Positions 41,977-56,489 of a stretch of DNA of 64,000 nucleotides are shown in pieces. Position numbers and translations under genes: made by a program. Origin of the DNA: Clostridia bacterium. Lineage in GTDB: Bacteria; Bacillota; Clostridia; Oscillospirales; Acutalibacteraceae. The notes below the pieces were generated by a model. It ran no database searches, was not told where the DNA came from, and was given only the letters and a program-made list of their open reading frames with translations. The first letter of the stretch is position 1; every line of letters begins with the position of its first letter. Where the stretch lies: the NCBI GenBank assembly GCA_017452785.1, contig JAFTLT010000019.1, positions 1-64,000 of the forward strand. The letters run 5' to 3'.

Positions 41977-44475
41977 TTGAAGCAGTTTGATGTAACGGGT
42001 ATGTCGTGTGCTGCATGCAGTGCACGGGTTGAAAAGGCAGTGTCTGCTCTTGAGGGGGTAACACAGTGTAGCGTTAATCTTCTGACAAACTCAATGGGTG
42101 TTGAGGGCTCTGCCGATGAAAAAGAAATAATTGCCGCTGTTGAAAAGGCAGGCTACGGAGCAAGCGTGAAGGGCGGCAGTGTAAAAGAATCACAAAGCAA
42201 AGAAGACGCCTTCAAGGACAGGGAAACTCCGAAGCTGAAAAGAAGGCTGATATTATCCGTAGGCTTTCTTGCAGTGCTTATGTATGTTTCAATGGGACAC
42301 TCAATGTGGGGCTGGCCTTTGCCTATGCTTGAAGGCAACTATCTCGGCATAGGTCTTTTGCAGATGTGTCTTAGTGTAATTGTTATGCTCATAAACAAAA
42401 AGTTTTTTATCAGCGGAGTAAAAGGCGTAACCAACAAAGCTCCTAATATGGATACCCTTGTTGCAATGGGCAGCGGTGCATCTTTTCTTTGGAGTGTTTA
42501 TGTGCTGTTTGCTATGACCGCTGCAGCCACAAAGGGTGATATGCAGCAGGTTATGCACCTTAGTCACGATTTTTATTTTGAATCGGCGGCTATGATTGTA
42601 ACACTTATAACAGTGGGTAAAATGCTTGAAGCAAAAAGCAAGGGCAAAACCACAAACGCCCTTAAAGCTCTTATGGACTTAAGACCAAAAACAGCCAGAG
42701 TTATAAAAGACGGTGAAGAAACTGAAATCTCAGCCGAGGATGTAAAAAAAGGTGACATTTTTGTTGTACGCCCCGGTGAGAGCATACCCGTTGACGGAGT
42801 GGTGCTTGAGGGTCACAGTGCCGTTAATGAATCTGCACTAACGGGTGAGAGTATACCTGTCGATAAAAAGTCAGGGGATAAGGTCTCAGCTTCCACAGTC
42901 AATCAGTCGGGGCTCATAAAGTGTCAGGCTGTTGCTGTAGGTGAAGACACGACTTTATCACAGATAATAAAAATGGTAAGCGATGCTTCTGCAACAAAGG
43001 CACCTATTGCCAAAATTGCCGACAAGGTGTCAGGTATATTTGTGCCAACGGTTATCGCTATAGCTATAATTACAGGTATAGTCTGGCTTATTGCAGGTCA
43101 GAGTGTGGTTTTCGCACTTGCAAGAGCTATTTCGGTGCTTGTTATAAGCTGCCCTTGTGCATTGGGGCTTGCAACACCTGTTGCCATAATGGTTGCAAGC
43201 GGTATGGGTGCAAAGAATGGTATACTGTTTAAAACTGCCGAGGCTATTGAGAAAGCAGGCAAGATTCAGATAGTGGCTCTTGATAAAACAGGCACAATAA
43301 CCAAGGGTGAGCCTGAGGTGACAGATATTATCCCTGATGAGGGAGTAAGTGAAAAAGAGCTGCTGACTTATGCCTATTCTCTTGAAAGGGACAGTGAGCA
43401 CCCTCTTGCAAAAGCGGTGGTGAAATATGCTGATGGCAAGGTGGAAGCAGAAAAGGTCAGTGATTTTGCATCCTTGCCCGGCAAAGGCCTTGAAGGCTAT
43501 ATTGGTTCAGATAAGGTCTGTGGCGGTAATCTTAAGTTTATAGAGGAGCTCTGCGAAGTACCCCAAAAGATTAAAGATGATATTGAAAGGCTTTCTTTTC
43601 AGGGAAAAACCCCCTTGCTTTTTGCAAAAGGAAGAAGGTTTTTAGGTGCAGTGCTTGCTGCCGATGTTATAAAAGAAGAAAGCGAAAAAGCGGTAAGCGA
43701 GCTTAAAAATATGGGCATACATGTTGTTATGCTCACAGGCGATAACGAAAACACGGCGAAAACCATAGGTGAAATTGCAGGTGTTGATGAGGTTATTGCA
43801 GGGGTACTGCCTGACGGCAAAGAAAAGGTTATACGCTCACTTGCAAAGCGTGGTACAGTGGCAATGGTAGGTGACGGCATAAATGATGCACCTGCCCTGA
43901 CCAGAGCTGACATAGGCATTGCTATTGGCAGCGGAACGGATATAGCTATTGATGCAGGTGACATTGTGCTTATGAAAAGCAGCCTCAGCGATGTGCCGAA
44001 GCTGCTCAGACTCAGCAGATGCACCCTTAAGACAATTCATCAGAATTTATTCTGGGCGTTTTTCTATAATGCACTCGGCATACCTCTTGCAGCAGGTGCG
44101 TTTATACCGATTTTCGGTTGGACACTGACACCTATGTTCGGCGCAGCAGCGATGAGCCTTTCAAGCTTTTGTGTTGTGTCAAATGCACTAAGACTCAATT
44201 TTGCCGATATATCTTCATCAAAGCATGACAGGAAGATAAAAAATAAGCTCCCTGAAATAGATCAGGAAGCGGAAAATGAGAAGATTATCAGCGTTAAGGG
44301 TATGATGTGTGAGCATTGCGAAAAGCGAGTGAGGGAAGCTCTTGAAGCTCTCAGTGAAATAGAAAAAGCCGAGCCTGATTTTAAATCGGGTCAGGTCAGA
44401 CTCACACTGCTTGGTGAAGCAGATATGAAAAAAATCCGTAAAGCCATAAAGGATGCGGGATATAAGGTGAATTAG
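41977..44475 (+). CDS. copA: Cu(I)-exporting P1B-type ATPase
   Basis: An 832-residue copper pump. It has an N-terminal HMA domain ([10 protein letters not shown], Cys11/Cys14), eight transmembrane helices, the [11 protein letters not shown] metal site, the phosphorylated Asp in DKTGTIT near residue 435, and the [10 protein letters not shown] hinge. Unusually, a second HMA domain sits at the C terminus ([13 protein letters not shown]). The start codon is TTG with GAGGTG seven bases upstream, the only suitable start before the HMA domain. It is in an operon with csoR. Confidence 0.96.
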
Positions 44476-44544
44476 GAATTTGGAATTGTGGGAAGGTCTT
44501 GATAAAACAGCAATTTTTAATTCGCATATTAAATCACATAAAAA

Positions 44545-44590
44545 ATATCCACCTGTTCCTTGTTTAGTGAACAGGTGGATATAGCTTTTT
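44545..44590. terminator. Bidirectional terminator after copA
   Basis: A perfect 14-bp stem, ATATCCACCTGTTC/GAACAGGTGGATAT, with T5 after it and an A-run before it. Confidence 0.88.
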
Positions 44591-44637
44591 AAAAGAATTA
44601 CCTGATGTTAATTTTCTTTGCGGCAGCAGCCATCCTT

Positions 44638-45024
44638 TTACTGTGAGTCCGTCGGAATTCCGAATTCCCCCAAGTGTTTTCTTATTGCGTCGAAACTTTC
44701 GTCAGATAAAATGTGTTCGATTTTGCAGGCATCTTCAACTGCTGTATCTTTTGAAACGCCAAGACGCATAAGACACTCACTTAGGATTGTGTGTCTTGTG
44801 TAAAGCTTTTCGGCAATTTCCCTTCCCGGAGGTAAAAGAACAATACTGCCGTCGCCCATAACATCAATATAGCCGTTTTCTCTTAAGTTTTTCATTGCCA
44901 CACTGACACTGGGCTTTGAGTAGCCTAATTCGTTTGCAATATCAATTGAGCGTACACTGCCGTTTTTTGCAGTGAGCATCAATATTGTTTCCAGATAATT
45001 TTCTGCTGATTGCTGTATCTTCAT
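44638..45024 (-). CDS. DtxR-family metal-dependent regulator
   Basis: A 128-residue repressor with an N-terminal winged HTH (SIDIANELGYSKPSVSVAMKNL) and a dimerisation/metal domain. Likely metal ligands are His78, Cys100, Glu103 and His104 (EDACKIEH). The Cys corresponds to the Fe-type DtxR/IdeR ligand rather than the Glu of MntR, suggesting Fe(II) sensing. The C-terminal SH3-like domain is absent, as in short members. ATG 45024 with AGGAG is chosen over an upstream in-frame ATG. Confidence 0.9.
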   Translation of the reverse strand: MKIQQSAENYLETILMLTAKNGSVRSIDIANELGYSKPSVSVAMKNLRENGYIDVMGDGSIVLLPPGREIAEKLYTRHTILSECLMRLGVSKDTAVEDACKIEHILSDESFDAIRKHLGEFGIPTDSQ

Positions 45025-45178
45025 TTGTTTTCTCCTGTTAGTTGATGATAAAATTATAACATATTTGCATATGTTTTTCAAGTCTGTTGACCTATTAAGC
45101 TATTTATGGAAAAGCGAACAGAGAAATAAAATTTGCTTTTATGACTGTGCAGAAATTTTGCTTTGTAAGCGGCAAAAA

Positions 45179-45208
45179 AATTCGGCAATACAAATGTACC
45201 ACCGAATT
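45179..45208 (-). terminator. Terminator of the small secreted protein gene
   Basis: AATTCGG/CCGAATT stem followed by T7 on the minus strand. Confidence 0.75.
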
Positions 45209-45227
45209 AATTCAGTTTTGTTTAAAA

Positions 45228-45560
45228 TCAGAAGGGAAGGCTGCCGTTACCGAGAACCTTTGAAAGGAACTGGTCAACAAAAACTCTTAAGCCTCTGAGG
45301 AAATTATCAAGAGCGTCGAGAATTTTTGAGATTGTGCCGCTGAGACTTTCAATGCTGTCTGTTGCATCGTCAACTTCTTCCTGATTTTCACCGATTGCAG
45401 TTGAAATGAAATCACCGAGAACTTCTTCTGTTGACTGAGTTGTGGGAATAGCCTGAGTTGTGATAGGTTCAGCAACAACGCCGTCTGAAGCTGCTCCGAC
45501 ACCCATAACCATTGTGAAGCAAAGAATAATTGCCATTAAAGCGATAGAAATCTTTTTCAT
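45228..45560 (-). CDS. Small secreted protein with amphipathic C terminus
   Basis: A 110-residue exported protein; the signal peptide is about 1-24 (ending VGAAS). A Thr/Gln/Pro linker and an acidic segment (GENQEEVDDATDSIESL) lead to a C-terminal amphipathic helix, ISKILDALDNFLRGLRVFVD plus QFLSKVLG. No catalytic motif is visible; the mature protein is essentially linker plus helix. AAAAGGAG lies before the ATG. The promoter overlaps a perfect 12-bp palindrome at 45576-45606, implying regulation. I know no family. Confidence 0.8.
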   Translation of the reverse strand: MKKISIALMAIILCFTMVMGVGAASDGVVAEPITTQAIPTTQSTEEVLGDFISTAIGENQEEVDDATDSIESLSGTISKILDALDNFLRGLRVFVDQFLSKVLGNGSLPF

Positions 45561-45575
45561 TTTGCATAACTCCTT

Positions 45576-45624
45576 TTTGATATAATAGTGAATATATTAT
45601 ATCAAAGATTAACTCAATATGCAA
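45576..45624 (-). promoter_or_regulatory. Promoter embedded in a palindromic operator
   Basis: On the minus strand, TTGCAT (45619-45624) and TATAAT (45596-45601) have a 17-base spacer. The -10 box lies in one arm of the perfect inverted repeat TTTGATATAATA/TATTATATCAAA (45576-45606, 7-nt loop), which extends to the start-site region. A repressor site is the simplest reading. Confidence 0.6.
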
Positions 45625-45668
45625 CATTTAATTAAAATTTTAATTTTTTTAATAGTGAATCTATATAG

Positions 45669-45865
45669 GATAAGGCTGATGCGTAAGCAGCATAAATTCC
45701 GGAACTGACGCAAAAGCATGAGTTCCGGTATTTAAACTGTAAAGAGCAAACTGCAAAAACCGGCTGTTCACGGAAAGAATTGCTGTACCAGTGAAGGAGC
45801 GCAGCTTATCTCTCACCGATTTCCTTCACAGGAATTTGCACTCACAATTTTATTGTATGCAAAAA
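45669..45865 (+). other. Candidate structured RNA (unassigned)
   Basis: The 45607-45984 gap has no ORF with a binding site but much complementarity. GATAAG at 45669 pairs with CTTATC near 45806, with further CTG/CAG pairs, closing a long-range stem. Inside is CCGGAACT/AGTTCCGG with a GCAAAAGC apex. GTGAAGGA and CCTTCAC can alternatively pair, and TTTGCA/TGCAAA closes a final hairpin. I matched it to no known class (6S, c-di-GMP, SAM, cobalamin were considered). Strand and transcription are unproven. Confidence 0.35.
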
Positions 45866-45873
45866 AGCTCATA

Positions 45874-45903
45874 TTGACATAGAGGGATTTTATGGGATAT
45901 AAT
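45874..45903 (+). promoter_or_regulatory. Promoter of the MTA/SAH nucleosidase gene
   Basis: TTGACA at 45874 and TATAAT at 45898, spacer 18. Confidence 0.75.
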
Positions 45904-45984
45904 TATAATCAGTGAAATTTGTGCTTTCAGGGTTTTTCTGAGCCGATTTTAAATAAAAAAGATGTTGTGAAAGGAAAAATAAAA

Positions 45985-46695
45985 ATGAAAAAAACTGTAG
46001 GAATACTTTTTGCGGATACAATGGAATATGGTCCTTTTCTTCAGTGGGCAAAAGAGAATGTTCACTGTGAAAAAATAAGAAGAGGCAACGAAAGCTGCAG
46101 TGTGACCCTGACAAAGGGTGAAAACTCACTTGAGGTTATTGCTGTCAGATGCGGAATAGGCAAGGTAAATGCCGCCTCAGCCACAGCTTTTCTTATCAGC
46201 GACGACAATGCAGACTATATCCTCAATGCAGGACTTTCAGGTGCGGTGCAAAAGCTCAAGAGAGAGGATATGATTGCAGCCGAGAGCTTTGTTGAGTGTG
46301 ACTTTGATCTCACTGCTATAGGATATGGATTAGGGGTTAAGCCTGACGGTCAGGAATATATTTATTATCCCGATGAAAAGCTGCTGTCTTACGCTCTTAT
46401 GAGCAAGGGCATTATTAAGGCTAAGACGGGAACAGGTGACATTTTTCTGACAGATAAAGAAAGAAAAAATCTCTATAAGGAAACCTTCGGCATTGATTCC
46501 TTTGATATGGAAACAGCAGCAATTGCAGGTGTGTGTCACAAGTGCGGCGTACCCATGCTGTCTCTTCGCAAAATAAGCGACGATGCAGATGATTGCTCAG
46601 TTGAGGATTACCGTGAAATGAACGAGAGACAGGAAAGCTGTCTGACAGAGCTTCTTATAAATGTGCTGAGCAGAATTCTTGACGATATGGAATAA
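45985..46695 (+). CDS. MTA/SAH nucleosidase-family protein
   Basis: A 236-residue protein of the PNP/UDP phosphorylase superfamily. Features of 5'-methylthioadenosine/S-adenosylhomocysteine nucleosidase are visible: the catalytic Glu14 region (DTMEYGPF), GIGKVNAA (57-64), DMETAAIA with Met175/Glu176 binding the ribose, and a likely catalytic Asp199. It would cleave the N-glycosidic bond of MTA or SAH, recycling AdoMet by-products. Divergence from typical MTAN in GLSGAVQKL leaves futalosine-type or other nucleosides possible. AAAGGA precedes ATG 45985. Confidence 0.85.
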   Translation: MKKTVGILFADTMEYGPFLQWAKENVHCEKIRRGNESCSVTLTKGENSLEVIAVRCGIGKVNAASATAFLISDDNADYILNAGLSGAVQKLKREDMIAAESFVECDFDLTAIGYGLGVKPDGQEYIYYPDEKLLSYALMSKGIIKAKTGTGDIFLTDKERKNLYKETFGIDSFDMETAAIAGVCHKCGVPMLSLRKISDDADDCSVEDYREMNERQESCLTELLINVLSRILDDME

Positions 46696-46752
46696 TAATC
46701 GCAAAAAAAGAAAAAATATGCAAAAACTGCTGAATTTTATACGCTCAACCTC

Positions 46753-46781
46753 TTGAAAAAATAAAAATTGAATAGTATAAT
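46753..46781 (+). promoter_or_regulatory. Promoter upstream of the PHP gene
   Basis: TTGAAA at 46753 and TATAAT at 46776, spacer 17. A GACCTT/AAGGTC-type hairpin (46811-46841) lies in the leader. Confidence 0.7.
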
Positions 46782-46871
46782 AAATATGATTATTATTATT
46801 GAGGAAGTTTGACCTTTTTTTAAGGAAAAGCCTGAAAGGTCAACAAGAAAAAGGAAACGGGGAGTATTAAA

Positions 46872-47747
46872 TTGAAAGCAGATTTACATTGTCACACCAA
46901 ACTTTCAGACGGCACCTTGGGCATTGACGATATTATTATTCTTGCCAAAAACAGCGGTGTTACAACTCTGGCTATCACAGACCACGACTGCCTTGCGGGC
47001 ACAGTCAGAGCAAGCATAATCGGCGAAAGACACGGAATTAATGTTATTCCTGCCGTGGAGTTTTCTGCAACAGACAGCAAGAGAGGAGCAAAAGCGCACA
47101 TACTCTGCTATCTGCCCGACACTCCCGAAAGACTTGAAGGCCTTTGCAAGAGCAACACAGAAAAGAGAAAAAGAGCAGGCAGAATAATGATAGCTAAGGC
47201 TACATCAAAATTCCCCATAAGCACAGAGCTTATTATGAAATGTGCAACAGGCTCAACAAACATTTATAAGCAGCATATTATGCATGCTCTTATGGAGTGC
47301 GGCTATACAACAAGCATATTCGGCGATTTATTCAAAAAGCTTTTCTCCTCTGAGTCAAGAATGAATATATCAATGGAGGCTACATATCCCGAACCCTCAG
47401 AAATAATCGAAGCAATTCACGAGGCAGGCGGCATTGCCGTGCTTGCTCACCCCGGTTTCTATGATAATTTTGAGCTTTTGGAAGAGCTTATTCCTTTAGG
47501 ACTTGACGGTGTTGAGGTCTGGCATCCTGAGAATACTCCCGAACAGCAGGAAATGCTTATCAGAACAGCAAAAAAGCATGACCTTCTTATGACAGGCGGC
47601 AGTGATTTCCACGGTGCATATAATGCGTACCCCATTAAGCTTGGCGAATACGGTCCCGACGAGGAAAATGTAGCAAAGCTGCTTGCTTATAAGGCAAAGA
47701 AACGCAGAAAGCAAAAAAGAATGGCTGCTGCGGCTGAGGCAAAATAA
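46872..47747 (+). CDS. PHP-domain phosphoesterase (YciV/RNase AM-like)
   Basis: A 291-residue cytoplasmic PHP protein. Metal ligands begin with DLHCHTKLSDG (His6, His8), then TDHDCLAG, VEFSA, AHPGFYD and GGSDFHG, the full PHP set. This architecture matches nucleoside 3',5'-bisphosphate phosphatase/5'-3' exoribonuclease (RNase AM, YciV). The C-terminal end is strongly basic (AKKRRKQKRM), which could aid RNA binding. The start is TTG with GGGGAG; no ATG fits before the first metal motif. It heads a gene run leading to the hydrogenase operon. Confidence 0.88.
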   Translation: MKADLHCHTKLSDGTLGIDDIIILAKNSGVTTLAITDHDCLAGTVRASIIGERHGINVIPAVEFSATDSKRGAKAHILCYLPDTPERLEGLCKSNTEKRKRAGRIMIAKATSKFPISTELIMKCATGSTNIYKQHIMHALMECGYTTSIFGDLFKKLFSSESRMNISMEATYPEPSEIIEAIHEAGGIAVLAHPGFYDNFELLEELIPLGLDGVEVWHPENTPEQQEMLIRTAKKHDLLMTGGSDFHGAYNAYPIKLGEYGPDEENVAKLLAYKAKKRRKQKRMAAAAEAK

Positions 47748-47788
47748 CTTGTCCCCGAAGGGCTAAAATATTTTTAACGGAGAACTAT

Positions 47789-48376
47789 ATGAACGAAAAT
47801 GATGTAAAGATTTATGTCAGCGAAAAAGAAATGAATAAAAATGCAGGCGAGTTCAGCGGAAACTTTGAGCTTGTAATGGCTAACAGAGCAAACGGCAATA
47901 TTGATAAAGCCAGAAAACTGGGTGCCTCACTTGCAACAATTGCCCCCACAGATGTGGGCGATGAAGGAATTTATGTTGACATAAGAAATCACCTTGCACC
48001 TAAGTTTCTGATGCCGGATATACTTTATCAGATAAGGGTACTGTTGGTTTTTGCCTGCGAAACACTTTTGCAGATGGAAATTCCCATAGAGCTGCTGTCA
48101 ACAACGGCAATCGCCTCTATGTACAGTGAAATGGAAAAGGAAATGCCGGGCTTTTACAGCAATATATCAAACGGTGCAGCCTTTACCTTTTATTATCTTG
48201 CAATTCAGAAGGGCGGCGACCTTTCACGCAACATTGGTGAAGCCTTTGCCATGCTCTGCTCAGTTAAAAACAAAGAGGGCTTTGTGCTGGCAGGTCAGAC
48301 TGTGTGGAATATTGCTGTGGATGTTATTGAAAAAGAAATTGAAAAAGCAGGACTCAAAGAGATTTGTCCGGAATAA
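47789..48376 (+). CDS. Unrecognised helical protein, 195 aa
   Basis: I do not recognise this family. It is soluble and mostly helical, with IYVDIRNHLAPKFLMPDILYQ-like and AFTFYYLAIQKGGDLSRNIG-like segments, and no signal peptide or obvious motif. AACGGAG lies before the ATG. It lies 41 bases after the PHP gene and just before a short hairpin and the hydrogenase-linked operon, so a role in that pathway is possible but unproven. Confidence 0.75.
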   Translation: MNENDVKIYVSEKEMNKNAGEFSGNFELVMANRANGNIDKARKLGASLATIAPTDVGDEGIYVDIRNHLAPKFLMPDILYQIRVLLVFACETLLQMEIPIELLSTTAIASMYSEMEKEMPGFYSNISNGAAFTFYYLAIQKGGDLSRNIGEAFAMLCSVKNKEGFVLAGQTVWNIAVDVIEKEIEKAGLKEICPE

Positions 48377-48387
48377 ACAAAGAAGTT

Positions 48388-48408
48388 AAGCGGACATTGT
48401 GTCCGCTT
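48388..48408 (+). terminator. Short hairpin between the upstream pair and the hydrogenase operon
   Basis: An 8-bp stem AAGCGGAC/GTCCGCTT has a weak T-tail, and TATAAT follows near 48416. It may separate two transcripts or act as a leaky terminator. Confidence 0.45.
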
Positions 48409-48458
48409 TCTGCGTATATAATATTATTAATTGCCGTTTTCGGCATTGGAGGAAAACC

Positions 48459-48809
48459 ATGAAAGTCAGAGATATTCAGGAAATTTTAAATGCAGAAGTA
48501 ATTTGCAGAGACGACCTTCTTGACACAGAGGTCTATGCCGCTTGCGGCAGTGACATGATGAGTGATGTGCTTGCCTTTGTCAAAGAGCAGGCAGTTATGC
48601 TCACAGGTCTTGTTAACCCTCAGGTGGTACGCACAGCGGAAATGATGGATATGCATTGCATAGTTTTTGTCAGAGGCAAACGCCCTGACCTTAATATGAT
48701 TGAAATGGCTGAGGACAGAGACATGGTTATGCTCTGCACAGACTGCGAAATGTTTACCTCCTGCGGCAAGCTCTATTCAGCGGGACTGAGGGGAGGCAGC
48801 GCACAGTAA
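48459..48809 (+). CDS. DRTGG-type domain protein, operon gene 1
   Basis: A 116-residue protein resembling standalone DRTGG domains found beside Fe hydrogenase genes in Clostridia: KVRDIQEILNAEVICRDDLLDTEV, then an alpha/beta core with VMLTGLVNPQVVRTAEM and IVFVRGKRPD. It may bind a nucleotide or partner; the role is unproven. ATG 48459 with GGAGG is preferred over an in-frame start at 48399. Its stop overlaps the next ATG by one base (taATG), indicating translational coupling. Confidence 0.8.
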   Translation: MKVRDIQEILNAEVICRDDLLDTEVYAACGSDMMSDVLAFVKEQAVMLTGLVNPQVVRTAEMMDMHCIVFVRGKRPDLNMIEMAEDRDMVMLCTDCEMFTSCGKLYSAGLRGGSAQ

Positions 48810-49234
48810 TGGAAGATGTTATCAAGCTCCACTATGTTGTACCGGGGGACGATTTCACAAGAGCAGGTGCTGCGTCCGGTGATGTCAAGCGTACCCTTAA
48901 GCAGCTTGGAATTTCACCTGCCGTTATAAGAAATGTTTCCATTGCAATGTATGAGGGCGAAATTAATATGGTTATTCACGCCGGTGGCGGAGAAATAGAT
49001 GTTGAAATAACAGAGAATGGCATTAAAATGGCTCTGGCAGATAAAGGCCCCGGCATTGCGAATGTGGAGCTTGCAATGAAAGAGGGTTATTCAACTGCGC
49101 CTGACAATATAAGAAATCTTGGCTTTGGTGCAGGCATGGGTCTGCCTAATATAAAAAAGTATACAGATGATTTCAGAATAGAAACGGCAGTGGGAGTAGG
49201 TACGACACTGTTTCTGAACGTTAATATCCAATAA
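48809..49234 (+). CDS. HATPase_c anti-sigma-factor-like protein (RsbW-type)
   Basis: A 141-residue single GHKL ATP-binding domain. The N-box is near SIAMYEGEINMVIHA, the G1 box is ALADKGPGI, and a G2-like GFGAGMGLPNIKKY follows. This matches anti-sigma regulatory serine kinases. A target sigma or anti-anti-sigma factor is not encoded nearby. The coupling with DRTGG and hydrogenase genes suggests it relays the hydrogenase's redox state. Confidence 0.88.
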   Translation: MEDVIKLHYVVPGDDFTRAGAASGDVKRTLKQLGISPAVIRNVSIAMYEGEINMVIHAGGGEIDVEITENGIKMALADKGPGIANVELAMKEGYSTAPDNIRNLGFGAGMGLPNIKKYTDDFRIETAVGVGTTLFLNVNIQ

Positions 49235-49264
49235 AGCATAATAATATGAAGAAAGGAGGCAGCT

Positions 49265-50587
49265 ATGTCTATATTGTTTCATTCAGTGCGCCTTGATGCG
49301 GAGAAATGTCAGGGCTGCACAAACTGTATAAAACGTTGCCCCACAGAAGCTATAAGAGTAAGAAATAAAAAAGCATATATTATTTCAGACAGATGCATTG
49401 ACTGCGGTGAGTGCATAAGAGTTTGCCCCCATCATGCAAAATATGCCGTAAGTGAGCATTTTAATGAGCTGGTTAAATATAGATACAGAATAGCACTTCC
49501 TGCACCTGCACTTTACGGTCAGTTTAACAATCTTGAAAATGTTGACTATGTGCTGACAGGACTCAAAAAAATGGGTTTTGACGATGTTGTTGAGGTTTCA
49601 AAGGGTGCTGAAATCCTTTCTTCGGCAACGAGAGAAATGTTTGAAAGCGGCGAGCTTAAAAAGCCGGTTATATCCTCTGCCTGCCCTGCAGTTGTCAGGC
49701 TTATTAGAACAAGATTTCCAAATCTTCTGGGCAATTTGCTGCCCACTTGTGCGCCCATTGACCTTGCGGCAAAAATAGCAAGAGAAAAGGCTAGAAAAGA
49801 GACTGATTACAGTGATGAAGAAATAGGTGTTTTCTTTATTACTCCCTGCCCTGCAAAAAGAACGGCAATAAGCAATCCTCTCTGCCACGAAAATTACGGC
49901 ATTAGCGGTGCAATTGCAATAAAGGATATTTATCCCGTTCTTGTGCAGACTATGGATAAGCTTAAAACCGATGAAATAGAAAATATAAACGATTCAGGTA
50001 TAATAGGTGTTGGTTGGGCAAGCAGCGGCGGAGAGGCCGCAGGGCTTTTAAAAGAGAGGTATCTTGCTGCTGACGGCATTGAAAATGTTATCAATGTGCT
50101 TGAGGAGCTTGAAAACGAAAAGCTCAATGACCTTGATTTTATAGAGCTCAATTGCTGCACGGGCGGATGTGTCGGCGGCGTGCTGACAGTTGAAAACCCA
50201 TATGTTGCTAAGGCAAGACTGCAAAGGCTCAGAAAGTTTATGCCTGTTTCCTGCAACCGACTTGATGATTATTTCACTATTGACGACCTTGGATGGACAA
50301 AGGAGCTGACGGCATCACCTGCCATGAAGTTAGCTGACAATGTTATAACGGCAATGAGAATGATGTCAAGACTCAGAGAAATTGAAAGCTCACTGCCGGG
50401 TCTTGACTGCGGCATATGCGGTGCACCCTCCTGCAGAGCACTTGCAGACGATATAGTCAGAGGATATGCTCAGGAAACTGACTGTGTTTTACATAATATA
50501 CAAGTTGGCGGAAAAGACGATTGGCTTCCTGCGCCTTTCAGAATGAAGGTACAAAACGAAGAAAGCGGAGATAAAAATGACAGTTAA
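49265..50587 (+). CDS. Group D-like putatively sensory [FeFe] hydrogenase
   Basis: A 440-residue protein. Two N-terminal [4Fe-4S] sites are Cys15/18/21/25 and Cys44/47/50/54. The H-cluster domain keeps the four cluster ligands: Cys140 (SSACP), Cys195 (TPCPAK, with Lys198), Cys298 and Cys302 (CCTGGC). The usual proton-relay Cys of TSCCP is replaced by Ala139. The C terminus adds Cys382/385/390/407, exactly CX2CX4CX16C. This layout matches my knowledge of group D sensory hydrogenases such as Thermoanaerobacter HydS. AAAGGAGG precedes the ATG. Maturases HydEFG are not in the window. Confidence 0.88.
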   Translation: MSILFHSVRLDAEKCQGCTNCIKRCPTEAIRVRNKKAYIISDRCIDCGECIRVCPHHAKYAVSEHFNELVKYRYRIALPAPALYGQFNNLENVDYVLTGLKKMGFDDVVEVSKGAEILSSATREMFESGELKKPVISSACPAVVRLIRTRFPNLLGNLLPTCAPIDLAAKIAREKARKETDYSDEEIGVFFITPCPAKRTAISNPLCHENYGISGAIAIKDIYPVLVQTMDKLKTDEIENINDSGIIGVGWASSGGEAAGLLKERYLAADGIENVINVLEELENEKLNDLDFIELNCCTGGCVGGVLTVENPYVAKARLQRLRKFMPVSCNRLDDYFTIDDLGWTKELTASPAMKLADNVITAMRMMSRLREIESSLPGLDCGICGAPSCRALADDIVRGYAQETDCVLHNIQVGGKDDWLPAPFRMKVQNEESGDKNDS

Positions 50588-50903
50588 AGAATTAGCACAG
50601 AGGCTGCAGCTTAAAATACTCACAGAGATAGATGAAGATAAGGAAGTAACAGGATGTTACAGCGGTGACTTGCTTTCATGGGTCATGTCAAAGGCAAAGA
50701 TGGGCGATGTTTGGCTGACGGTTATGGGCAATGTCAATGCAGTTGCAGTTGCCGTGCTCACAGAGTGTGCCTGTATAGTGTTGACGGAAAATGCTGCTCT
50801 TGATGAGCAGGCAAAGCAAAAGGCTGAGCTTCAGGGCGTAACATTTTTACAGAGCGACAGAAATGCCTATGAGCTTTCTGTGGAAATAGCAAAGCTGATA
50901 TGA
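50577..50903 (+). CDS. DRTGG-type domain protein, operon gene 4
   Basis: A 108-residue protein similar in plan to the gene at 48459: KELAQRLQLKILTEIDEDKEV, then GCYSGDLLSWVMSKAKMGDV and ACIVLTENAALDEQAK. It overlaps the hydrogenase gene by 11 bases and the next gene by four, so translation is coupled. It may interact with the hydrogenase or the ATPase-like protein; no activity is established. Confidence 0.82.
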   Translation: MTVKELAQRLQLKILTEIDEDKEVTGCYSGDLLSWVMSKAKMGDVWLTVMGNVNAVAVAVLTECACIVLTENAALDEQAKQKAELQGVTFLQSDRNAYELSVEIAKLI

Positions 50904-51619
50904 TGAAGCTGTATTACGATTTGCATTTACATTCCTGCCTTTCACCCTGCGGTGACAATGATATGACACCTTATAATCTTGTCAATATGGCTAAGATTTT
51001 CGGTTATGATGTTATTGCACTTACGGACCACAACACCTGCAAAAACTGCGGCAGTGCCATAAAGGTTGGTGAGCAGACAGGCATAACCGTTGTGCCGGGA
51101 ATGGAATTGTGTACAAGTGAAGAAATTCACTGTGTGTGCCTTTTCCCTTCGCTAAAAAGTGCTGAGGCCTTTTCCGATCATATCTACGGTACTCTGCCGC
51201 CTATAAAAAATAAGGAGAAGATTTTTGGCGAACAGCTTATTATGGATAGTGAGGACGGCATACTGGGGAAAGAAGAAATACTTCTGACAACGGCAAGCAG
51301 TGTGAGCATAGATGCCTTGCCGTCTTTGGTGGATGAATACGGCGGAGTGTGCTATCCTGCCCATATTGACAGAAACTCTTACAGCATAATTTCATCTCTT
51401 GGTGATTTCAGCCCTGATTTAAAGGTCAGCTGCTTTGAGCTGACACCTCAGGCTGACGAAAGGCACTATCTTGAAAAGTACACAGCAACAAAGGGAAAGC
51501 TTATAATAAGAAGCTCGGATGCACACTATCTTGAAAATATGCGTGAGCCGGAGTTTTATCTTGAGCTCAGAGAGAATTCAGCCGAGGCACTTATAGATTA
51601 TCTCAAAGGAGAGGTTTAA
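50900..51619 (+). CDS. PHP-domain protein, operon gene 5
   Basis: A 239-residue PHP protein. YYDLHLHSCLSPCGDND carries His9 and His11; TDHN, a PGMEL glutamate, PAHIDRNSY and RSSDAHYL supply the other metal positions. It is usually found next to the DRTGG/hydrogenase genes in Clostridia, in my recollection. The reaction is unknown; a nucleotide phosphatase in a signalling circuit is plausible. The ATGA overlap with the upstream gene and the stop directly abutting the next ATG place it in the same operon. Confidence 0.87.
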   Translation: MMKLYYDLHLHSCLSPCGDNDMTPYNLVNMAKIFGYDVIALTDHNTCKNCGSAIKVGEQTGITVVPGMELCTSEEIHCVCLFPSLKSAEAFSDHIYGTLPPIKNKEKIFGEQLIMDSEDGILGKEEILLTTASSVSIDALPSLVDEYGGVCYPAHIDRNSYSIISSLGDFSPDLKVSCFELTPQADERHYLEKYTATKGKLIIRSSDAHYLENMREPEFYLELRENSAEALIDYLKGEV

Positions 51620-52072
51620 ATGACAGAAAAAGAAAGAGCGGGGGAGCTGTTCCTTGAAGGGTATAACTGTGCTCAGTCAGTGTTTACAGCATTTTCTCAC
51701 CGTTTCGGCTTAAATGAGGAAACTGCCAAAAAGGTTTCAGCAGGCCTTGGCGGCGGAGTTGGCAGAATGAGAGAGGTCTGCGGTGCCGTAAGCGGAGCAG
51801 CTATGGTTATAGGCAGCCTTTGTGCTGCAACAACGGGTGATGACACCGAAAGTAAAAAGCGAAACTATGAGTTAGTCCGTGAGTTCGCTGACAGATTCAA
51901 TGCCATACACGGCAGTGTTGTTTGCAGAGACTTATTGAAACTGGGAACAAAAATGGAAGACACAGCAAAACCTGACAGCAGAAATGCACAGTATTATAAA
52001 TCACGCCCTTGTCTTAAGGTTGTTGAGGATGCAGCAGGTATTCTTATGCAGATGATTGAGGAAAATGAATAG
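51620..52072 (+). CDS. C_GCAxxG_C_C family protein
   Basis: A 150-residue protein of the C_GCAxxG_C_C family (motif NCAQSV near 16, GGGVGRMREVCGAVSGA near 45, then later CRDLL and CLKVV cysteines). The spaced cysteines probably bind a metal or redox cofactor; no function is proven. It starts on the base after the upstream stop, with AAAGGAGAGG as its binding site. It is the last gene of the hydrogenase operon. Confidence 0.88.
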   Translation: MTEKERAGELFLEGYNCAQSVFTAFSHRFGLNEETAKKVSAGLGGGVGRMREVCGAVSGAAMVIGSLCAATTGDDTESKKRNYELVREFADRFNAIHGSVVCRDLLKLGTKMEDTAKPDSRNAQYYKSRPCLKVVEDAAGILMQMIEENE

Positions 52073-52076
52073 AAAA

Positions 52077-52109
52077 AAGCGACTTTGTTCACACTGAACA
52101 GAGTCGCTT
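52077..52109. terminator. Terminator of the hydrogenase operon
   Basis: A perfect 14-bp stem, AAGCGACTTTGTTC/GAACAGAGTCGCTT. It overlaps the last codons of the convergent YHYH gene and probably works in both directions. Confidence 0.85.
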
Positions 52110-52802
52110 CTTTACTTGTCGGTTTATTATAAATCTGCAAATGCATACCGCAATGTAACAAATCAGAGTGACGGCGATTATAATAATCAAATATATTTGA
52201 AGCTCAAGCAAAGGAAAGTTTACAATATCAAGAACTTTCATAGTCATAAGCTCGTCGGTCTCGGCTCTGATTATCAGTGACCCTGGAGTCAGGGGGTTAA
52301 CCTTGTTGTCGTCTTCAAGTGTGCCGTTTTGAACGGATATTTGAACAGTAGTGTTATCGCTGTCAGAGTCGTCTGTAACAACAGTGAAATAAATCGGCTT
52401 AGTAAGGCTGTAATAGCTTTTGCCGAAAAAGCTGACGGTCGGGACGGTTTCTATAATAAGGTCTATGCTTGAACAGTTCGGAAAGAGGGATGTTTCATCC
52501 TCTTTAAGTGTTGTCTTTTCCTGTTTTACCGATAGGGTCGGTTGACTATTTATAACCTCAGTGTTGTTGGTTGTCGGTTGTGTCTGAGAATAGGGGCAAG
52601 CTCCGTTTTCGTGAAGATGTGCCGGGTTACCGTTACAATGATAGTGGTAGCTTCCGAGTCCGCTGTCGTTTTCATTGTCATTGTGTCCGCCCTTGGAATC
52701 TGTGTTGCCCGGGTGCGCAAAGCATACTGTGAAAAAGGATAGGCTAATCAAAAGGGTAATAATGAGGGATAAAACGGTTTTAAGATGATTTTTGCGTGAC
52801 AT
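52089..52802 (-). CDS. YHYH-domain membrane protein
   Basis: A 237-residue protein with a signal peptide (about 1-28), then the YHYH zinc-type motif: GNTDSKGGHNDNENDSGLGS followed by YHYHCNGNPAHLH and CPY. An extracellular beta region (about 90-180) and a C-terminal transmembrane helix (LQIYLIIIIAVTLICYIAVC) with basic tail follow. YHYH domains are thought to bind metal. ATG 52802 with AGAGGTG is preferred over an in-frame ATG at 52847 that lies inside the leader terminator. An elaborate leader precedes it. Confidence 0.85.
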   Translation of the reverse strand: MSRKNHLKTVLSLIITLLISLSFFTVCFAHPGNTDSKGGHNDNENDSGLGSYHYHCNGNPAHLHENGACPYSQTQPTTNNTEVINSQPTLSVKQEKTTLKEDETSLFPNCSSIDLIIETVPTVSFFGKSYYSLTKPIYFTVVTDDSDSDNTTVQISVQNGTLEDDNKVNPLTPGSLIIRAETDELMTMKVLDIVNFPLLELQIYLIIIIAVTLICYIAVCICRFIINRQVKKRLCSV

Positions 52803-52819
52803 AAAAACACCTCTAAAAT

Positions 52820-53018
52820 AAAAAAAGTGTGCCCAAACAGGACACACCGAAAAATGTATCTCCTATTTGGTGTCACGCAAATATTAACCCACGAAAAAGA
52901 TATAAGTGAATTAAGAGATACACCTTTACCAAAGTGTTCTCTTTTCCGTGGGTGACTATTCAATTGAAAAATATTTACGTGACAGGTGAATAATACCACA
53001 CTTAGTCAAAAAAAGCAA
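52820..53018 (-). promoter_or_regulatory. Attenuator-like structured leader of the YHYH gene
   Basis: On the minus strand, TTGCTT (53013-53018) and TATTAT (52990-52995), spacer 17, start a leader of about 180 nt. GTCACGtAAATATT pairs with AATATTTgCGTGAC, enclosing CCCACGgAAAA/TTTTTCGTGGG. A terminator hairpin (GTGTGtCC/GGgCACAC, 52827-52847) with U7 sits just before the binding site. TGTATCTC in the core can pair with GAGATACA downstream, and ACACC with GGTGT of the terminator, giving alternative folds. This is the plan of a riboswitch. The class is unknown. Confidence 0.55.
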
Positions 53019-53120
53019 CCTGATTGAAATAAAATCTTAAGAAATAATGTAACAAAACAGCATTGTAACTTATCTTGTTTAGTGATATACTGATATAAAA
53101 TGCATTAAGAGGTTTTTAAT

Positions 53121-54452
53121 ATGAAAAACAAACGAAAGAAAATAGCATCTGCAGTTATGACCTGCCTTGTGGTGGTGCTTGCGGCAGCGATTGTCGGCTT
53201 CACGGTGCAAAATGATATGATTCCTTCACTCACCACCACTTCACCTGTGCCCTCAACCACGCTTCCCACAACCACAGAGCCAACTGAGCCTCCTGTGCCA
53301 ACTGTTGAAAAGACAGTCACTATCGGTTCGGCAGGAGATGTGCTCATACACATTCCCGTTTATCAGAATGCAAAGCAAAGTGACGGTACTTACGATTTCA
53401 GCCACCTTTTTACCTATAGTGAAAGTGAAATTAATGACTGTGACTATTTTGTGGCAAACCTTGAAACCACTCTTGCAGGCACAAACGGCAGAAGCTATAG
53501 CGGTTTTCCCCGATTTAACTCACCTGACTCTATTGTGGATGCACTGAAGGGTGCGGGTGTAGACTGCCTTCTCACTGCCAATAACCATAGCTATGATACA
53601 AACGGCCCCGGTGTGAAGCGTACTCTTGAGGTTATAGATAAAGCGAAGCTTGACCACACAGGCTCAAGACAAAGTGAAAACGAAAAGCAGTACCTTGTAA
53701 AAAATATCGAAGGCATAAAATTCGGATTTGCCTGCTACACCTATGAAACACCCACAACTGAGGGCAGAAAGGCTCTCAACGGACTCCTTGTTGACACCGC
53801 AACGGCACCTCTTATCAATTCATTTAACCCTGCAAAGCCCCAGAGCTTTTATGATGAGCTTGAAAGTAATATAAAGAAGATGAAAAAAGAGGGTGCAGAG
53901 GTTACTGTCATATATATCCATTGGGGTGAAGAATATCAGCTGACACAAAACGCCAAGCAAAAAGAAATTGCTCAGGAACTTTGCGATTTGGGCGTTGATG
54001 TGATAATCGGCGGACATCCTCATGTTGTGCAGCCTGTGGATCTTCTCACATCTACAGACGGTAAACATAAGACAGTTTGTGTCTATTCTCTCGGCAATTT
54101 CGTGTCAAATCAGAGACGAAACCTTATGGGCCTTAAAACGGGTCACACGGAAGACGGACTCATTTTTGAAATGACCTTTTCAAAATACAGCGACGGCACA
54201 GTTATATTTGACAGTGTTGATGCAATTCCCACATGGGTGCATCTCTATAATGAAAACGGCAAGAAGGTACATTCTATAGTACCACTTGAAGGAAATCTTG
54301 ACGAAAAAGCAGCTGAGCTCGGTCTTAACAAAACGGGTGACGGACTTGCTCAGGCAAAAGCATCAATGAAAAGAACAAATGCCCTTGTGTCTGAGGGCGA
54401 AAAGAAGTGCAACGACTATCTTAAAACAATTGTCAGACCTGATGAGGAGTAA
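53121..54452 (+). CDS. CapA-like metallophosphatase-fold protein
   Basis: A 443-residue membrane-anchored protein with an N-terminal helix (10-30) and a Thr/Pro linker (35-60). The CapA/PgsA fold shows GSAGDVLIH, VANLETTLAG, LTANNHSYD, IYIHWGEEYQ and IGGHPHVVQP in order. CapA proteins act in poly-gamma-glutamate or capsule export and cell-wall modification; this one has no capB/capC beside it. The YfhO-like membrane gene follows nine bases later, so the pair probably decorates the envelope. Confidence 0.92.
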   Translation: MKNKRKKIASAVMTCLVVVLAAAIVGFTVQNDMIPSLTTTSPVPSTTLPTTTEPTEPPVPTVEKTVTIGSAGDVLIHIPVYQNAKQSDGTYDFSHLFTYSESEINDCDYFVANLETTLAGTNGRSYSGFPRFNSPDSIVDALKGAGVDCLLTANNHSYDTNGPGVKRTLEVIDKAKLDHTGSRQSENEKQYLVKNIEGIKFGFACYTYETPTTEGRKALNGLLVDTATAPLINSFNPAKPQSFYDELESNIKKMKKEGAEVTVIYIHWGEEYQLTQNAKQKEIAQELCDLGVDVIIGGHPHVVQPVDLLTSTDGKHKTVCVYSLGNFVSNQRRNLMGLKTGHTEDGLIFEMTFSKYSDGTVIFDSVDAIPTWVHLYNENGKKVHSIVPLEGNLDEKAAELGLNKTGDGLAQAKASMKRTNALVSEGEKKCNDYLKTIVRPDEE

Positions 54453-54461
54453 GACTAAACA

Positions 54462-56489
54462 ATGAAAACTCTGTCAAAAGATAAAAAAATTAAATATCTT
54501 ATCCTTGCTTTTTCATTTGTTATTCCCTGCTTTGCAGTGCTCATAAGCTATATTATAAGAGGGATTGAGCCTTTCGGCGGCAGAACGCTCTGCTCAATGG
54601 ACGGCTTTTCGCAGTATTACCCAATGCTGATGAATATGGACGAAGCACTGTCAAAGGGAGAAGTGTTTTATTCCTTTCACGGTGCACTGGGGTTTAACCT
54701 CTGGGCTCAGAGTGCATATTACACCAACAGTCCCTTGTGGCTTCTTGTCTATATGATTCCTCACGAGTGGCAGATTGAGGCTATACATTTTCTCATTATG
54801 CTGAAAATCGGTCTTTCGGGATTTTTCTTCAGTTTGAGACTTCTGAGAAAATATGAAAACACAGATGAAAACAAGGCACTGAAATTCTTTCCTGCCCTGT
54901 CAACCGCATGGGCTCTTAGCGGCTATATGATTGCATTTATCAATCAGTTTATGTGGACTGATGTGATTATGCTTCTGCCTCTTGTTGTGCTTGGTATAGA
55001 GGAGCTTGTGAAGAATAAAAAGCTCACAGTTTACATAGTGAGTCTGTTTCTCAGCATATGGTCATGCTTTTATCTCAGTTTTATGGTCTGCATTTTCAGC
55101 GTGCTTTACTTTTTGTTCCTTATTCTTAAAGAGAAAATGGAAAACAAACAAAGATTTTCATACTGTCTTTGCTTCGGTGTGGGTTCGCTCACAGCAGGAG
55201 CTATGGCGGCAGTGAGCCTTATACCCACAGCTAAAGCGCTGAGTCTCACCCTTGCCAGTGAAGCAGGCTTCAATGAGGCTATAGAAATTAAATACACCCT
55301 CGGTAGGCTCCTTATGAGATTGCTGCCATTTCAGAAAATCTCTCTGGAATACGGTGAGCCTAATCTTTATTGCACCCTTATTGCAGTGGTGCTTATGCTG
55401 TTTTATTTTGCTTTCGGCAAAGCCTCAAAAAGAGAAAAGCTGCTTTACTTCGGCTTTGTCACATTTATGTTCCTGTCTATGTGTACTAATATAGGTGAGT
55501 ATCTGTGGCACGGTTTTCACTTTCCCAATCAGCTGCCTGCAAGACAGAGCTTTCTCGTTATATTCCTCATGCTGACAATTGCGGCTGAGGGGACTCAGAA
55601 ATTAGATTTTCGCAAAGGGGCGGCGACATTCTTGTCGGCTGTGATAATTTCAGGCGCGTCCCTGAGTGCAGTGTATCAGATAATATCTCAGGTCTGGGCG
55701 GCAAGAGTTGATTCGCTGCAAAGATATGAAAGCAGCATGGAGGAGTTTACCGCCCTTGACGATGAGGATATTTTCTCAAGGCTTGCATGGACAGATGAGA
55801 AGAAGAACAACTATCCTCAGCAGTATAACTATAACGGAATCTGCTATTATTCTTCAACAATGTCGGGGGATGCCTATGAGTTTTTTCAAAATCTCGGCAT
55901 GGAGCGTTATGCAAAAAACGTGAGCACACGCTATAATCAGTCGGATATACTCAACGCCATTTTCGGCATTAAGTATATTCTTGAAGAGGACGGCGAAACC
56001 ATAACCGTCAACGAAAACGCACTGCCCTTGGCTTTTCTGAGTGATGAAGCTGTGCTGGGTGTAAATCTCAGTGACTATAAAAAGGGCGAAGAAGCGCAAG
56101 AGGCACTGTGGGATAGTGTGGTGCTCAGTAAAAACGACTTTGACACTCAGGTCAGTGAGCTCAAGGCTAACGGCATAAACCTCACATATTTTGACACGGA
56201 TAAAATAAAAGGCAACATAACTTGTTACAGAGACGGAGTGCTTCTGACAAGTCTTCCATATGACGGTGGCTGGCGGATATTCATTGACGGTGAAGAAGCT
56301 GAAACAACCAAAGCGGCAGGCTATCTCACCTGTGCGGAGATAACAGAAGGCCGGCACGAGGTTGAGTTCAGGTATACAGTGCCGGGTATAGAGCTCGGTG
56401 CGGCACTCAGTCTGGTTGGAATTATATGCCTTGTAGTAATTATGAATTATGAATTAGGAATTATGAATTGGATTAAAAAGAAAATGTAA
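54462..56489 (+). CDS. YfhO-family membrane protein (GT-C-like)
   Basis: A 675-residue polytopic protein with about 12-13 helices, the family pattern IEPFGGRTLCSMDGFSQYYP near residue 33, and a C-terminal extracellular domain (GGWRIFIDGEEAE). YfhO proteins are thought to glycosylate lipoteichoic acid or other envelope polymers. It is translated just after capA. The last dozen residues are encoded by a run of ATTATGAATTA-type repeats, so the native C terminus may have been replaced. Confidence 0.9.
   Translation: MKTLSKDKKIKYLILAFSFVIPCFAVLISYIIRGIEPFGGRTLCSMDGFSQYYPMLMNMDEALSKGEVFYSFHGALGFNLWAQSAYYTNSPLWLLVYMIPHEWQIEAIHFLIMLKIGLSGFFFSLRLLRKYENTDENKALKFFPALSTAWALSGYMIAFINQFMWTDVIMLLPLVVLGIEELVKNKKLTVYIVSLFLSIWSCFYLSFMVCIFSVLYFLFLILKEKMENKQRFSYCLCFGVGSLTAGAMAAVSLIPTAKALSLTLASEAGFNEAIEIKYTLGRLLMRLLPFQKISLEYGEPNLYCTLIAVVLMLFYFAFGKASKREKLLYFGFVTFMFLSMCTNIGEYLWHGFHFPNQLPARQSFLVIFLMLTIAAEGTQKLDFRKGAATFLSAVIISGASLSAVYQIISQVWAARVDSLQRYESSMEEFTALDDEDIFSRLAWTDEKKNNYPQQYNYNGICYYSSTMSGDAYEFFQNLGMERYAKNVSTRYNQSDILNAIFGIKYILEEDGETITVNENALPLAFLSDEAVLGVNLSDYKKGEEAQEALWDSVVLSKNDFDTQVSELKANGINLTYFDTDKIKGNITCYRDGVLLTSLPYDGGWRIFIDGEEAETTKAAGYLTCAEITEGRHEVEFRYTVPGIELGAALSLVGIICLVVIMNYELGIMNWIKKKM

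Follow-up and report, generated by a model that had tools for sequence, protein, structure and literature searches.

A group D [FeFe] hydrogenase in a recurrent clostridial gene cassette with a SpoIIAB-like ATPase: a candidate route from H2 to redox control

A six-gene operon of a Clostridia bacterium encodes a group D (M2e) [FeFe] hydrogenase together with a SpoIIAB-like GHKL ATPase (HATP), two DRTGG-type proteins, a PHP-domain phosphoesterase and a C_GCAxxG protein. The operon lies at 48459-52072 in a stretch of 64,000 nt, hereafter the window, that covers positions 1 to 64,000 of the forward strand of contig JAFTLT010000019.1 (assembly GCA_017452785.1). It is read here as a regulatory cassette in which a GHKL kinase would take an H2 or redox input and control NAD/ferredoxin redox enzymes, with a probability of about 0.6. 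The reading builds on gene content and order, catalytic motifs, fusions, co-occurrence across genomes, linkage to hydABC in relatives, and the lack of a general dedicated STAS partner.

The operon and the class of its hydrogenase

The operon consists of six open reading frames (ORFs) on the plus strand, and every product scores above its Pfam cut-off:

48459..48809, + strand: DRTGG1, 116 aa, the first gene of the operon (PF07085, 25.9 bits against a cut-off of 25.2)
48809..49234, + strand: HATP, a SpoIIAB-like GHKL ATPase/kinase, 141 aa (PF13581, HATPase_c_2, 39.2 bits)
49265..50587, + strand: group D (M2e) [FeFe] hydrogenase, 440 aa (PF02906, 108.9 bits; PF04060, 44.6 bits; landmarks and tree below)
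50577..50903, + strand: DRTGG2, 108 aa (PF07085, 27.2 bits)
50900..51619, + strand: PHP-domain phosphoesterase, 239 aa (PF02811, 34.1 bits)
51620..52072, + strand: C_GCAxxG_C_C redox-type protein, 150 aa (PF09719, 124.4 bits)

Going by the coordinates, the first two genes overlap by 1 nt, HATP and the hydrogenase gene are 30 nt apart, the next two junctions overlap by 11 and 4 nt, and the PHP and C_GCAxxG genes abut exactly. A sequence-only reading of this DNA had described overlapping or abutting genes, which is accurate for four junctions; the ATPase and hydrogenase genes are separated by the 30-nt gap, which carries its own ribosome-binding-site-like stretch. The two DRTGG-type proteins, the PHP protein and the C_GCAxxG protein that it named are borne out by the Pfam matches.

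The hydrogenase (Pfam domains Fe_hyd_lg_C, Fer4 and FeS) is organized as two N-terminal [4Fe-4S] clusters, an H-domain and a C-terminal CX2CX4CX16C motif. It was aligned with 84 ORFs that scored above 380 bits among the 102 loci described below, giving 85 rows. The following codons and motif are referred to below:

49679..49684, + strand: codons of A139 (proton-relay position, Cys in group A) and C140 (H-cluster ligand), from sequence and alignment
50033..50035, + strand: codon of E257, equivalent to E252 of TamHydS, the group D proton-pathway entry (Glu in 82 of 85 rows)
50150..50152, + strand: codon of N296, at the position of CpI M497 (Asn 37, Gln 25 and Leu 12 of 85)
50408..50485, + strand: C-terminal [4Fe-4S] motif C382-X2-C385-X4-C390-X16-C407, an exact CX2CX4CX16C (each Cys in 84 of 85 rows, the remaining row having a gap)

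The sequence-only reading had claimed that the four H-cluster ligands are kept, that alanine replaces the proton-relay cysteine and that the C-terminal motif is present, and all three observations hold. The ligands are C140, C195, C298 and C302, and the relay position (CpI C299) is A139, with Ala in 67 and Ser in 12 of the 85 rows. No PAS domain was matched by Pfam in the 440-aa protein, which therefore lacks the hallmark of group C. The proton pathway of TamHydS, the group D enzyme of Thermoanaerobacter mathranii, runs through E252, E289, S249 and D265 (PMC10407848; this and the other papers cited by accession are drawn on from excerpts). The window equivalents are E257, E294, S254 and D270, with E, E, S and D in 82, 84, 43 and 80 of the 85 rows, respectively. 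Charged landmarks of group D near the accessory clusters, R30, R32, D378, E392, D393 and D403 (PMC13104023), are matched by R31, R33, D381, D395, D396 and D406; D395 is Asp in the window enzyme and Glu in 73 of 85 rows.

Scores against the NCBIfam models of group A (TIGR02512, 97.0 bits, cut-off 405.95) and group B1 (TIGR04105, 146.8 bits, cut-off 450) are far below both cut-offs, and the placement in catalytic groups A/B that had been named beforehand as grounds for giving up the assignment was not seen. A tree of 62 rows, calculated without TamHydS or HydDB references, included 43 D-type rows (the window protein and roughly one in two of the 84 ORFs). These 43 form one supported clade apart from 13 HydA rows of the trimeric type and from a B1 enzyme. 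Five further rows fall on the D-type side of the split and several rows are long-branched. Three of the five look sensory: a fragment from the genome of the window with a sub-threshold PAS match, a histidine-kinase fusion and a chemotaxis-receptor fusion; the other two are unclassified partial ORFs. By the published landmarks, the hydrogenase belongs to a class already described, group D (M2e), as had been proposed; the tree is in keeping with this.

Two ORFs recovered among the loci (given here as L numbers; genomes and contigs are given as G and C numbers) are observations in their own right. At L111:5534-7447 (-), an [FeFe]-hydrogenase domain is fused to a methyl-accepting chemotaxis-like stretch and may be an H2-taxis receptor. 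At L126:11969-14272 (-), an [FeFe] hydrogenase is fused to a sensor histidine kinase-like stretch; the same stretch of DNA holds a group D cassette with a hydrogenase-DRTGG2 fusion.

Assembly of the H-cluster was examined at the level of the genome. HydG (930.1 bits), HydF (545.9) and HydE (584.9) are all encoded on contig C18, grouped with a TM1266-type regulator. The absence of HydEFG, which had been named as another finding that would count against the proposal, is thus not what was found, and the gene complement indicates that the genome can build an H-cluster. Four hydrogenase-domain matches were identified in the genome: the operon enzyme, a HydA on contig C42, and a B1 enzyme and an incomplete hydrogenase on contig C30. 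The C42 cluster comprises hydC, a second ATPase, hydB and hydA, and NCBIfam calls its HydA NADH-dependent group A6. On C30 (L149:5532-9324, minus strand), a SpoIIE-type phosphatase gene lies between the genes of the B1 enzyme and the incomplete, group C-like hydrogenase. The latter sits at a contig end, has two in-frame stops within its match and gives a PAS score of 19.8 bits against a cut-off of 22.6, so its group C label is only inferred.

Conservation of the cassette and its variants

Two sets of loci were compiled. The first, 42 loci from a hydrogenase scan of a sequence collection, is biased toward near relatives since the scan patterns were taken from the window protein. The order DRTGG1-HATP-HYD-DRTGG2-PHP was complete in 34 of them; the remainder comprise one locus cut by its contig (L038) and seven weak matches without any cassette gene (L040-L046). 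The second set consists of 60 stretches around HATP from 57 genomes, selected among the listed matches so as to sample a range of families. Here the five-gene order was complete in 46, nine had the hydrogenase with some cassette genes undetected or cut off, and five had no hydrogenase in the cassette. Overall, the five-gene cassette is complete in 80/102 loci, and this recurrence indicates that the operon arrangement is not due to chance. The complete cassettes include L035, L100, L116 and L134, in which the hydrogenase is split over two frames; together with L095, these split genes may reflect assembly error or real decay. The sixth gene of the window operon, encoding the C_GCAxxG protein, was found near the cassette in only eight of the 102 loci, all among the nearest relatives of the window (L005-L014), and is a clade-specific addition.

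Linkage to a trimeric hydrogenase is common. Genes for its HydB or HydA lie near 56 of the 80 complete cassettes, on the same strand in 40 and on the opposite strand in 16, and the second ATPase is present in the stretch of 62. In six organisms, the locus tag of the group D hydrogenase and the nearest tag of an adjoining trimeric A1 cluster differ by exactly five (excerpt of PMC3561251). Going by the tag numbers, this gap fits DRTGG2, PHP, hydC and the second ATPase lying in between.

In a survey of 398 genomes sampled from the phylum (HATP at E <= 1e-20; hydrogenase at E <= 1e-90, with four candidates scored per genome), HATP was found in 169, the hydrogenase in 157 and both in 155 (raw counts). 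The hydrogenase occurred without HATP in two genomes, near a contig end in each (L196, L198). In one of these two, another hydrogenase copy (L197) has 2.3 kb of sequence upstream, and no HATP was found there.

All 14 genomes with HATP and no hydrogenase match were followed up. Eight carry hydrogenase-less cassettes: G321 (L127/L128), G090 (L142), G117 (L163/L164), G150 (L193) and four members of a single genus (L191, L192, L194, L195), which showed no PHP and, in three cases, have hydA nearby. The remaining six have the DRTGG1-HATP pair only (L161, L162), a frame-split hydrogenase (L116, L134) or a contig end (L158, L159). In L127 and L163, the DRTGG1-HATP pair, with an ATPase that carries CBS domains, precedes a gene for a 2Fe-2S-like protein and an Rnf-type operon, and in L161 and L162 the pair lies near Rex-, Nfn- and Rnf-type genes. 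In these hydrogenase-less loci the Rnf, Nfn and 2Fe-2S-like names come from reading the ORFs, and Rex from a match to a Rex query.

Several of the cassette proteins are fused in relatives. DRTGG1-HATP fusions occur in 10 loci and fusions of a CBS pair to HATP in 11 (queries were taken from four of these 11, and two were confirmed by Pfam). A hydrogenase-DRTGG2 fusion (L126) and a fusion of PHP to the second ATPase (L106) were each found once. Such fusions are hints to partners among the cassette proteins. CBS-fused HATP was present in 8 of 14 hydrogenase-less loci versus 3 of 97 hydrogenase-bearing loci; the rows are not independent, L159, an edge case, was excluded, and L195, with a truncated ATPase, is among the 14. 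A CBS pair thus tends to occur in the loci that lack the hydrogenase, as though one input had been exchanged for the other.

These variants bear on a different explanation of the operon, which casts the group D enzyme as a slowly working catalyst and its neighbors as factors that serve the assembly or quality control of this enzyme or of HydABC. Such an arrangement would agree with the full retention of the H-cluster ligands and of the group D proton pathway, with the interconversion of H+ and H2 by TamHydS (PMC8163306) and with a weak, sub-threshold match of DRTGG1 to the HydF dimerization domain. However, the hydrogenase-less cassettes retain the ATPase and the DRTGG proteins, some of them also PHP, and the ATPase there is often fused to CBS domains. 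Since such versions suggest a regulatory rather than an assembly role, this explanation is considered quite unlikely.

The ATPase, the sigma-factor question and the proposed route

The GHKL ATP-binding boxes of HATP are conserved, with E49, N53, D78, G80, G82, G105, G107, G109 and G111 each present in 96/96 aligned rows. When the family profile was compared to the PDB, the anti-sigma factor SpoIIAB was matched with an E-value of 6.5e-11 and RsbW with 5e-4. The sequence-only reading had called the protein RsbW-like; the relationship to the SpoIIAB/RsbW kinases stands, and the protein is nearer to SpoIIAB.

That reading had also regarded a sigma-factor switch as plausible. In this scheme HATP would be an anti-sigma factor that is freed by a STAS protein on H2, giving a dedicated partner-switching control. 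Apart from the SpoIIAB and RsbW matches and the retained ATP-binding boxes, the scheme can draw on the STAS counts. In profile searches of 58 ATPase-bearing genomes with STAS (PF01740) and STAS_2 (PF13466), 27 genomes had two or more STAS matches, the role of the extra copies lying outside the checks made; 29 had exactly one and two had none. The two genomes without STAS are 87% and 94% complete, and the STAS_2 search leaves the same two without a match. Against a dedicated switch, the sole STAS match of the window genome (89.8% complete) is SpoIIAA within spoIIAA-spoIIAB-sigF, and in all 21 single-STAS genomes examined (this one and 20 of the 28 others) the STAS protein is SpoIIAA beside SpoIIAB and SigF. 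Going by coordinates, none of the STAS matches in the 58 genomes lies within 10 kb of HATP. A dedicated STAS partner is thus not general, and a dedicated STAS/sigma switch is judged very unlikely after the STAS searches of the 58 genomes and the neighborhood checks of the 21, in which sigma-factor families were not searched for. Cross-talk of HATP with SpoIIAA is possible.

In both DRTGG proteins a Ser and an Asp are nearly or fully invariant: S35 (91/91) and D32 (90/91) of DRTGG1, which also has C102 in 86/91, and D31 and S34 of DRTGG2 (both 90/90). The PDB relatives of DRTGG1 are AF_1212 and a CBS-DRTGG pyrophosphatase. A role of the invariant Ser (DRTGG1 S35, DRTGG2 S34) as phosphosite was considered and is not claimed; an aligned Ser lies close by in AF_1212 and the residue may therefore be structural. 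The PHP protein was predicted with a mean pLDDT (predicted local distance difference test) of 97.4 and its best solved relative is Endonuclease Q. H9, H11, H44, E69, H77, H155, D207 and H209, which we take to be the PHP metal ligands, are kept wherever a row has a letter (84-86 of 87 rows).

From these components, the following route can be proposed. By analogy with TamHydS, the group D hydrogenase would bind H2 at its H-cluster and turn over slowly, so that it would report H2 or the ferredoxin redox state. The signal would pass through the small DRTGG proteins to HATP, DRTGG1 serving as the probable regulatory partner of the ATPase, and the DRTGG proteins and HATP would convert it into phosphorylation or another ATP-driven switch. 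The PHP phosphoesterase would act within the cassette, with a nucleotide or nucleic acid as a likelier substrate than a protein. The route would end in the control of NAD/ferredoxin redox enzymes, above all of the trimeric HydABC and, in other lineages, of Rnf/Nfn. Judging from the gene neighborhoods, redox enzymes (hydABC and, in some hydrogenase-less versions, Rnf/Nfn-type genes as read from their ORFs) are a better match for the output than a sigma switch.

A variant would place the control at the level of nucleotides, with adenine nucleotide bound by the DRTGG or CBS domains and degraded by PHP and with the hydrogenase as a modulator. The CBS-DRTGG relatives are compatible with this; some cassettes, however, gave no PHP match, and the variant is considered unlikely.

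Several points weigh against the regulatory cassette proposed here. The hydABC genes of the window genome are on another contig and not beside the operon, and the stretches examined for the ten nearest relatives (L005-L014), some of them short, showed no hydABC gene. The local link to a HydABC output thus appears to have been lost in this lineage. The co-occurrence and fusion counts are uncorrected for kinship. A structure model of a natural DRTGG1-ATPase fusion (predicted template modeling score, pTM, 0.49) has two folded domains with no defined interface. In a published test on TamHydS, H2 did not reduce the C-terminal cluster (PMC13104023), which speaks against redox signaling through that cluster. 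TamHydS is reported to be flanked by an ATPase and an AraC-family regulator (PMC8163306), and no AraC-family gene was recognized in the cassette. Finally, sensing, the kinase activity of HATP, the direction of the signal, its target and its output are all inferred from sequence.

A bolder form of the proposal is offered tentatively. The cassette may represent a new Ser/Thr kinase switch with an exchangeable sensor, in which DRTGG or CBS modules control a GHKL kinase that has no STAS partner of its own and whose target is a DRTGG protein or, directly, HydABC, Rnf or Nfn. The inputs would be the group D hydrogenase for H2 or, in other lineages, the CBS pair for adenylate, and group C cassettes with a SpoIIE-type phosphatase, of which the window genome seems to hold one, could be the opposing arm. 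An obligate counterpart of this kind was rejected, as 79 of the 169 ATPase genomes have no SpoIIE-type protein; conversely, 90 of 120 genomes with a SpoIIE-type protein also carry HATP (raw counts).

Surroundings, known systems and significance

Two hairpins flank the operon:

52077-52109, + strand: terminator-like hairpin closing the operon, 15-bp stem
48388-48408, strand unspecified: hairpin between the upstream gene and the operon, 9-bp stem

The scan gave four terminator-like sites with 3.0 expected and by itself proves nothing. No sigma-70-like promoter was listed on the plus strand between 48300 and the first gene. Control of the operon by Rex was considered and set aside; a Rex-like pattern had 170 matches in the window against 140.6 expected and none within 48300-48470. 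An Rfam scan of 44000-56000 found nothing at the gathering threshold. For the six operon proteins, PADLOC gave no match and PHROGs gave two weak matches, both to PHP. Just upstream lie a PHP-domain gene of the TrpH/RNase AM kind (46872-47747) and a gene for a 195-aa protein without a Pfam or NCBIfam match (47789-48376), each found in eight relatives. A YHYH-domain protein is encoded directly downstream on the minus strand (52089-52847), convergent with the operon.

Among known systems, TamHydS provides the closest comparison. The window enzyme shares with it two N-terminal [4Fe-4S] clusters, the H-domain, the C-terminal CX2CX4CX16C and the lack of PAS, as well as Ala for the relay Cys, a hydroxyl residue at the M353 position and Glu at the E252 and E289 positions. 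The two differ at the M497 position, which is Asn in the window enzyme and Leu in TamHydS (PMC8163306), and in their surroundings: the window operon does not adjoin hydABC, ends with the C_GCAxxG gene and has no recognized AraC-family neighbor. With Leu in only 12 of 85 rows, TamHydS, the studied model, is in the minority; an amide (Asn or Gln) occupies the position in 62 of 85, and TamHydS may not represent most group D enzymes.

The group C cassettes of R. albus (HydS) and T. saccharolyticum (HfsB and HfsC) likewise co-encode a putative H2 sensor with an enzyme of Ser phosphorylation, and in R. albus the phosphatase adjoins the group C hydrogenase (PMC6776011). The genes on C30 of the window genome make up a comparable set. 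They differ in combining a PAS domain with a PP2C/SpoIIE phosphatase, where the present cassette has a SpoIIAB-like ATPase with DRTGG and PHP proteins. The SpoIIAB/RsbW anti-sigma kinases are related to HATP in sequence and in their conserved ATP-binding boxes; unlike these, HATP has no STAS partner near the cassette and is fused to DRTGG1 or CBS pairs in relatives. The CBS-DRTGG region of the Clostridium perfringens pyrophosphatase (3l2b, 3l31) is a relative of the DRTGG proteins, and CBS domains occur in cassettes of relatives of the window; in these relatives, however, the partner joined to DRTGG and CBS domains is a GHKL ATPase and not a pyrophosphatase.

A kinase-like gene near the group D hydrogenase and the label "sensory" are already published (PMC3561251, PMC8163306). 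The hydrogenase class is itself known. The full DRTGG/PHP cassette, the fusions and the exchange of CBS pair and hydrogenase were not found described in the literature searched, which was consulted in part and did not extend to a 2010 survey of clostridial hydrogenases.

Group D enzymes lack the PAS domain of group C, and the authors of the TamHydS study ask how signal transduction is achieved (excerpt of PMC8163306). With its constant order of five genes and its natural fusions, the cassette points to the likely partners and makes this question testable with defined proteins. The cassette ATPase is common, being found in more than two-fifths of the phylum genomes surveyed (169 of 398), and complete cassettes usually lie near hydABC (56 of 80). 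Samples of the ruminant gut, where H2 feeds methanogens, are the source of the window's nearest named relatives. Recurring in many anaerobes, and often beside a hydrogen-metabolizing enzyme, the cassette may offer a concrete and testable route to H2 sensing.

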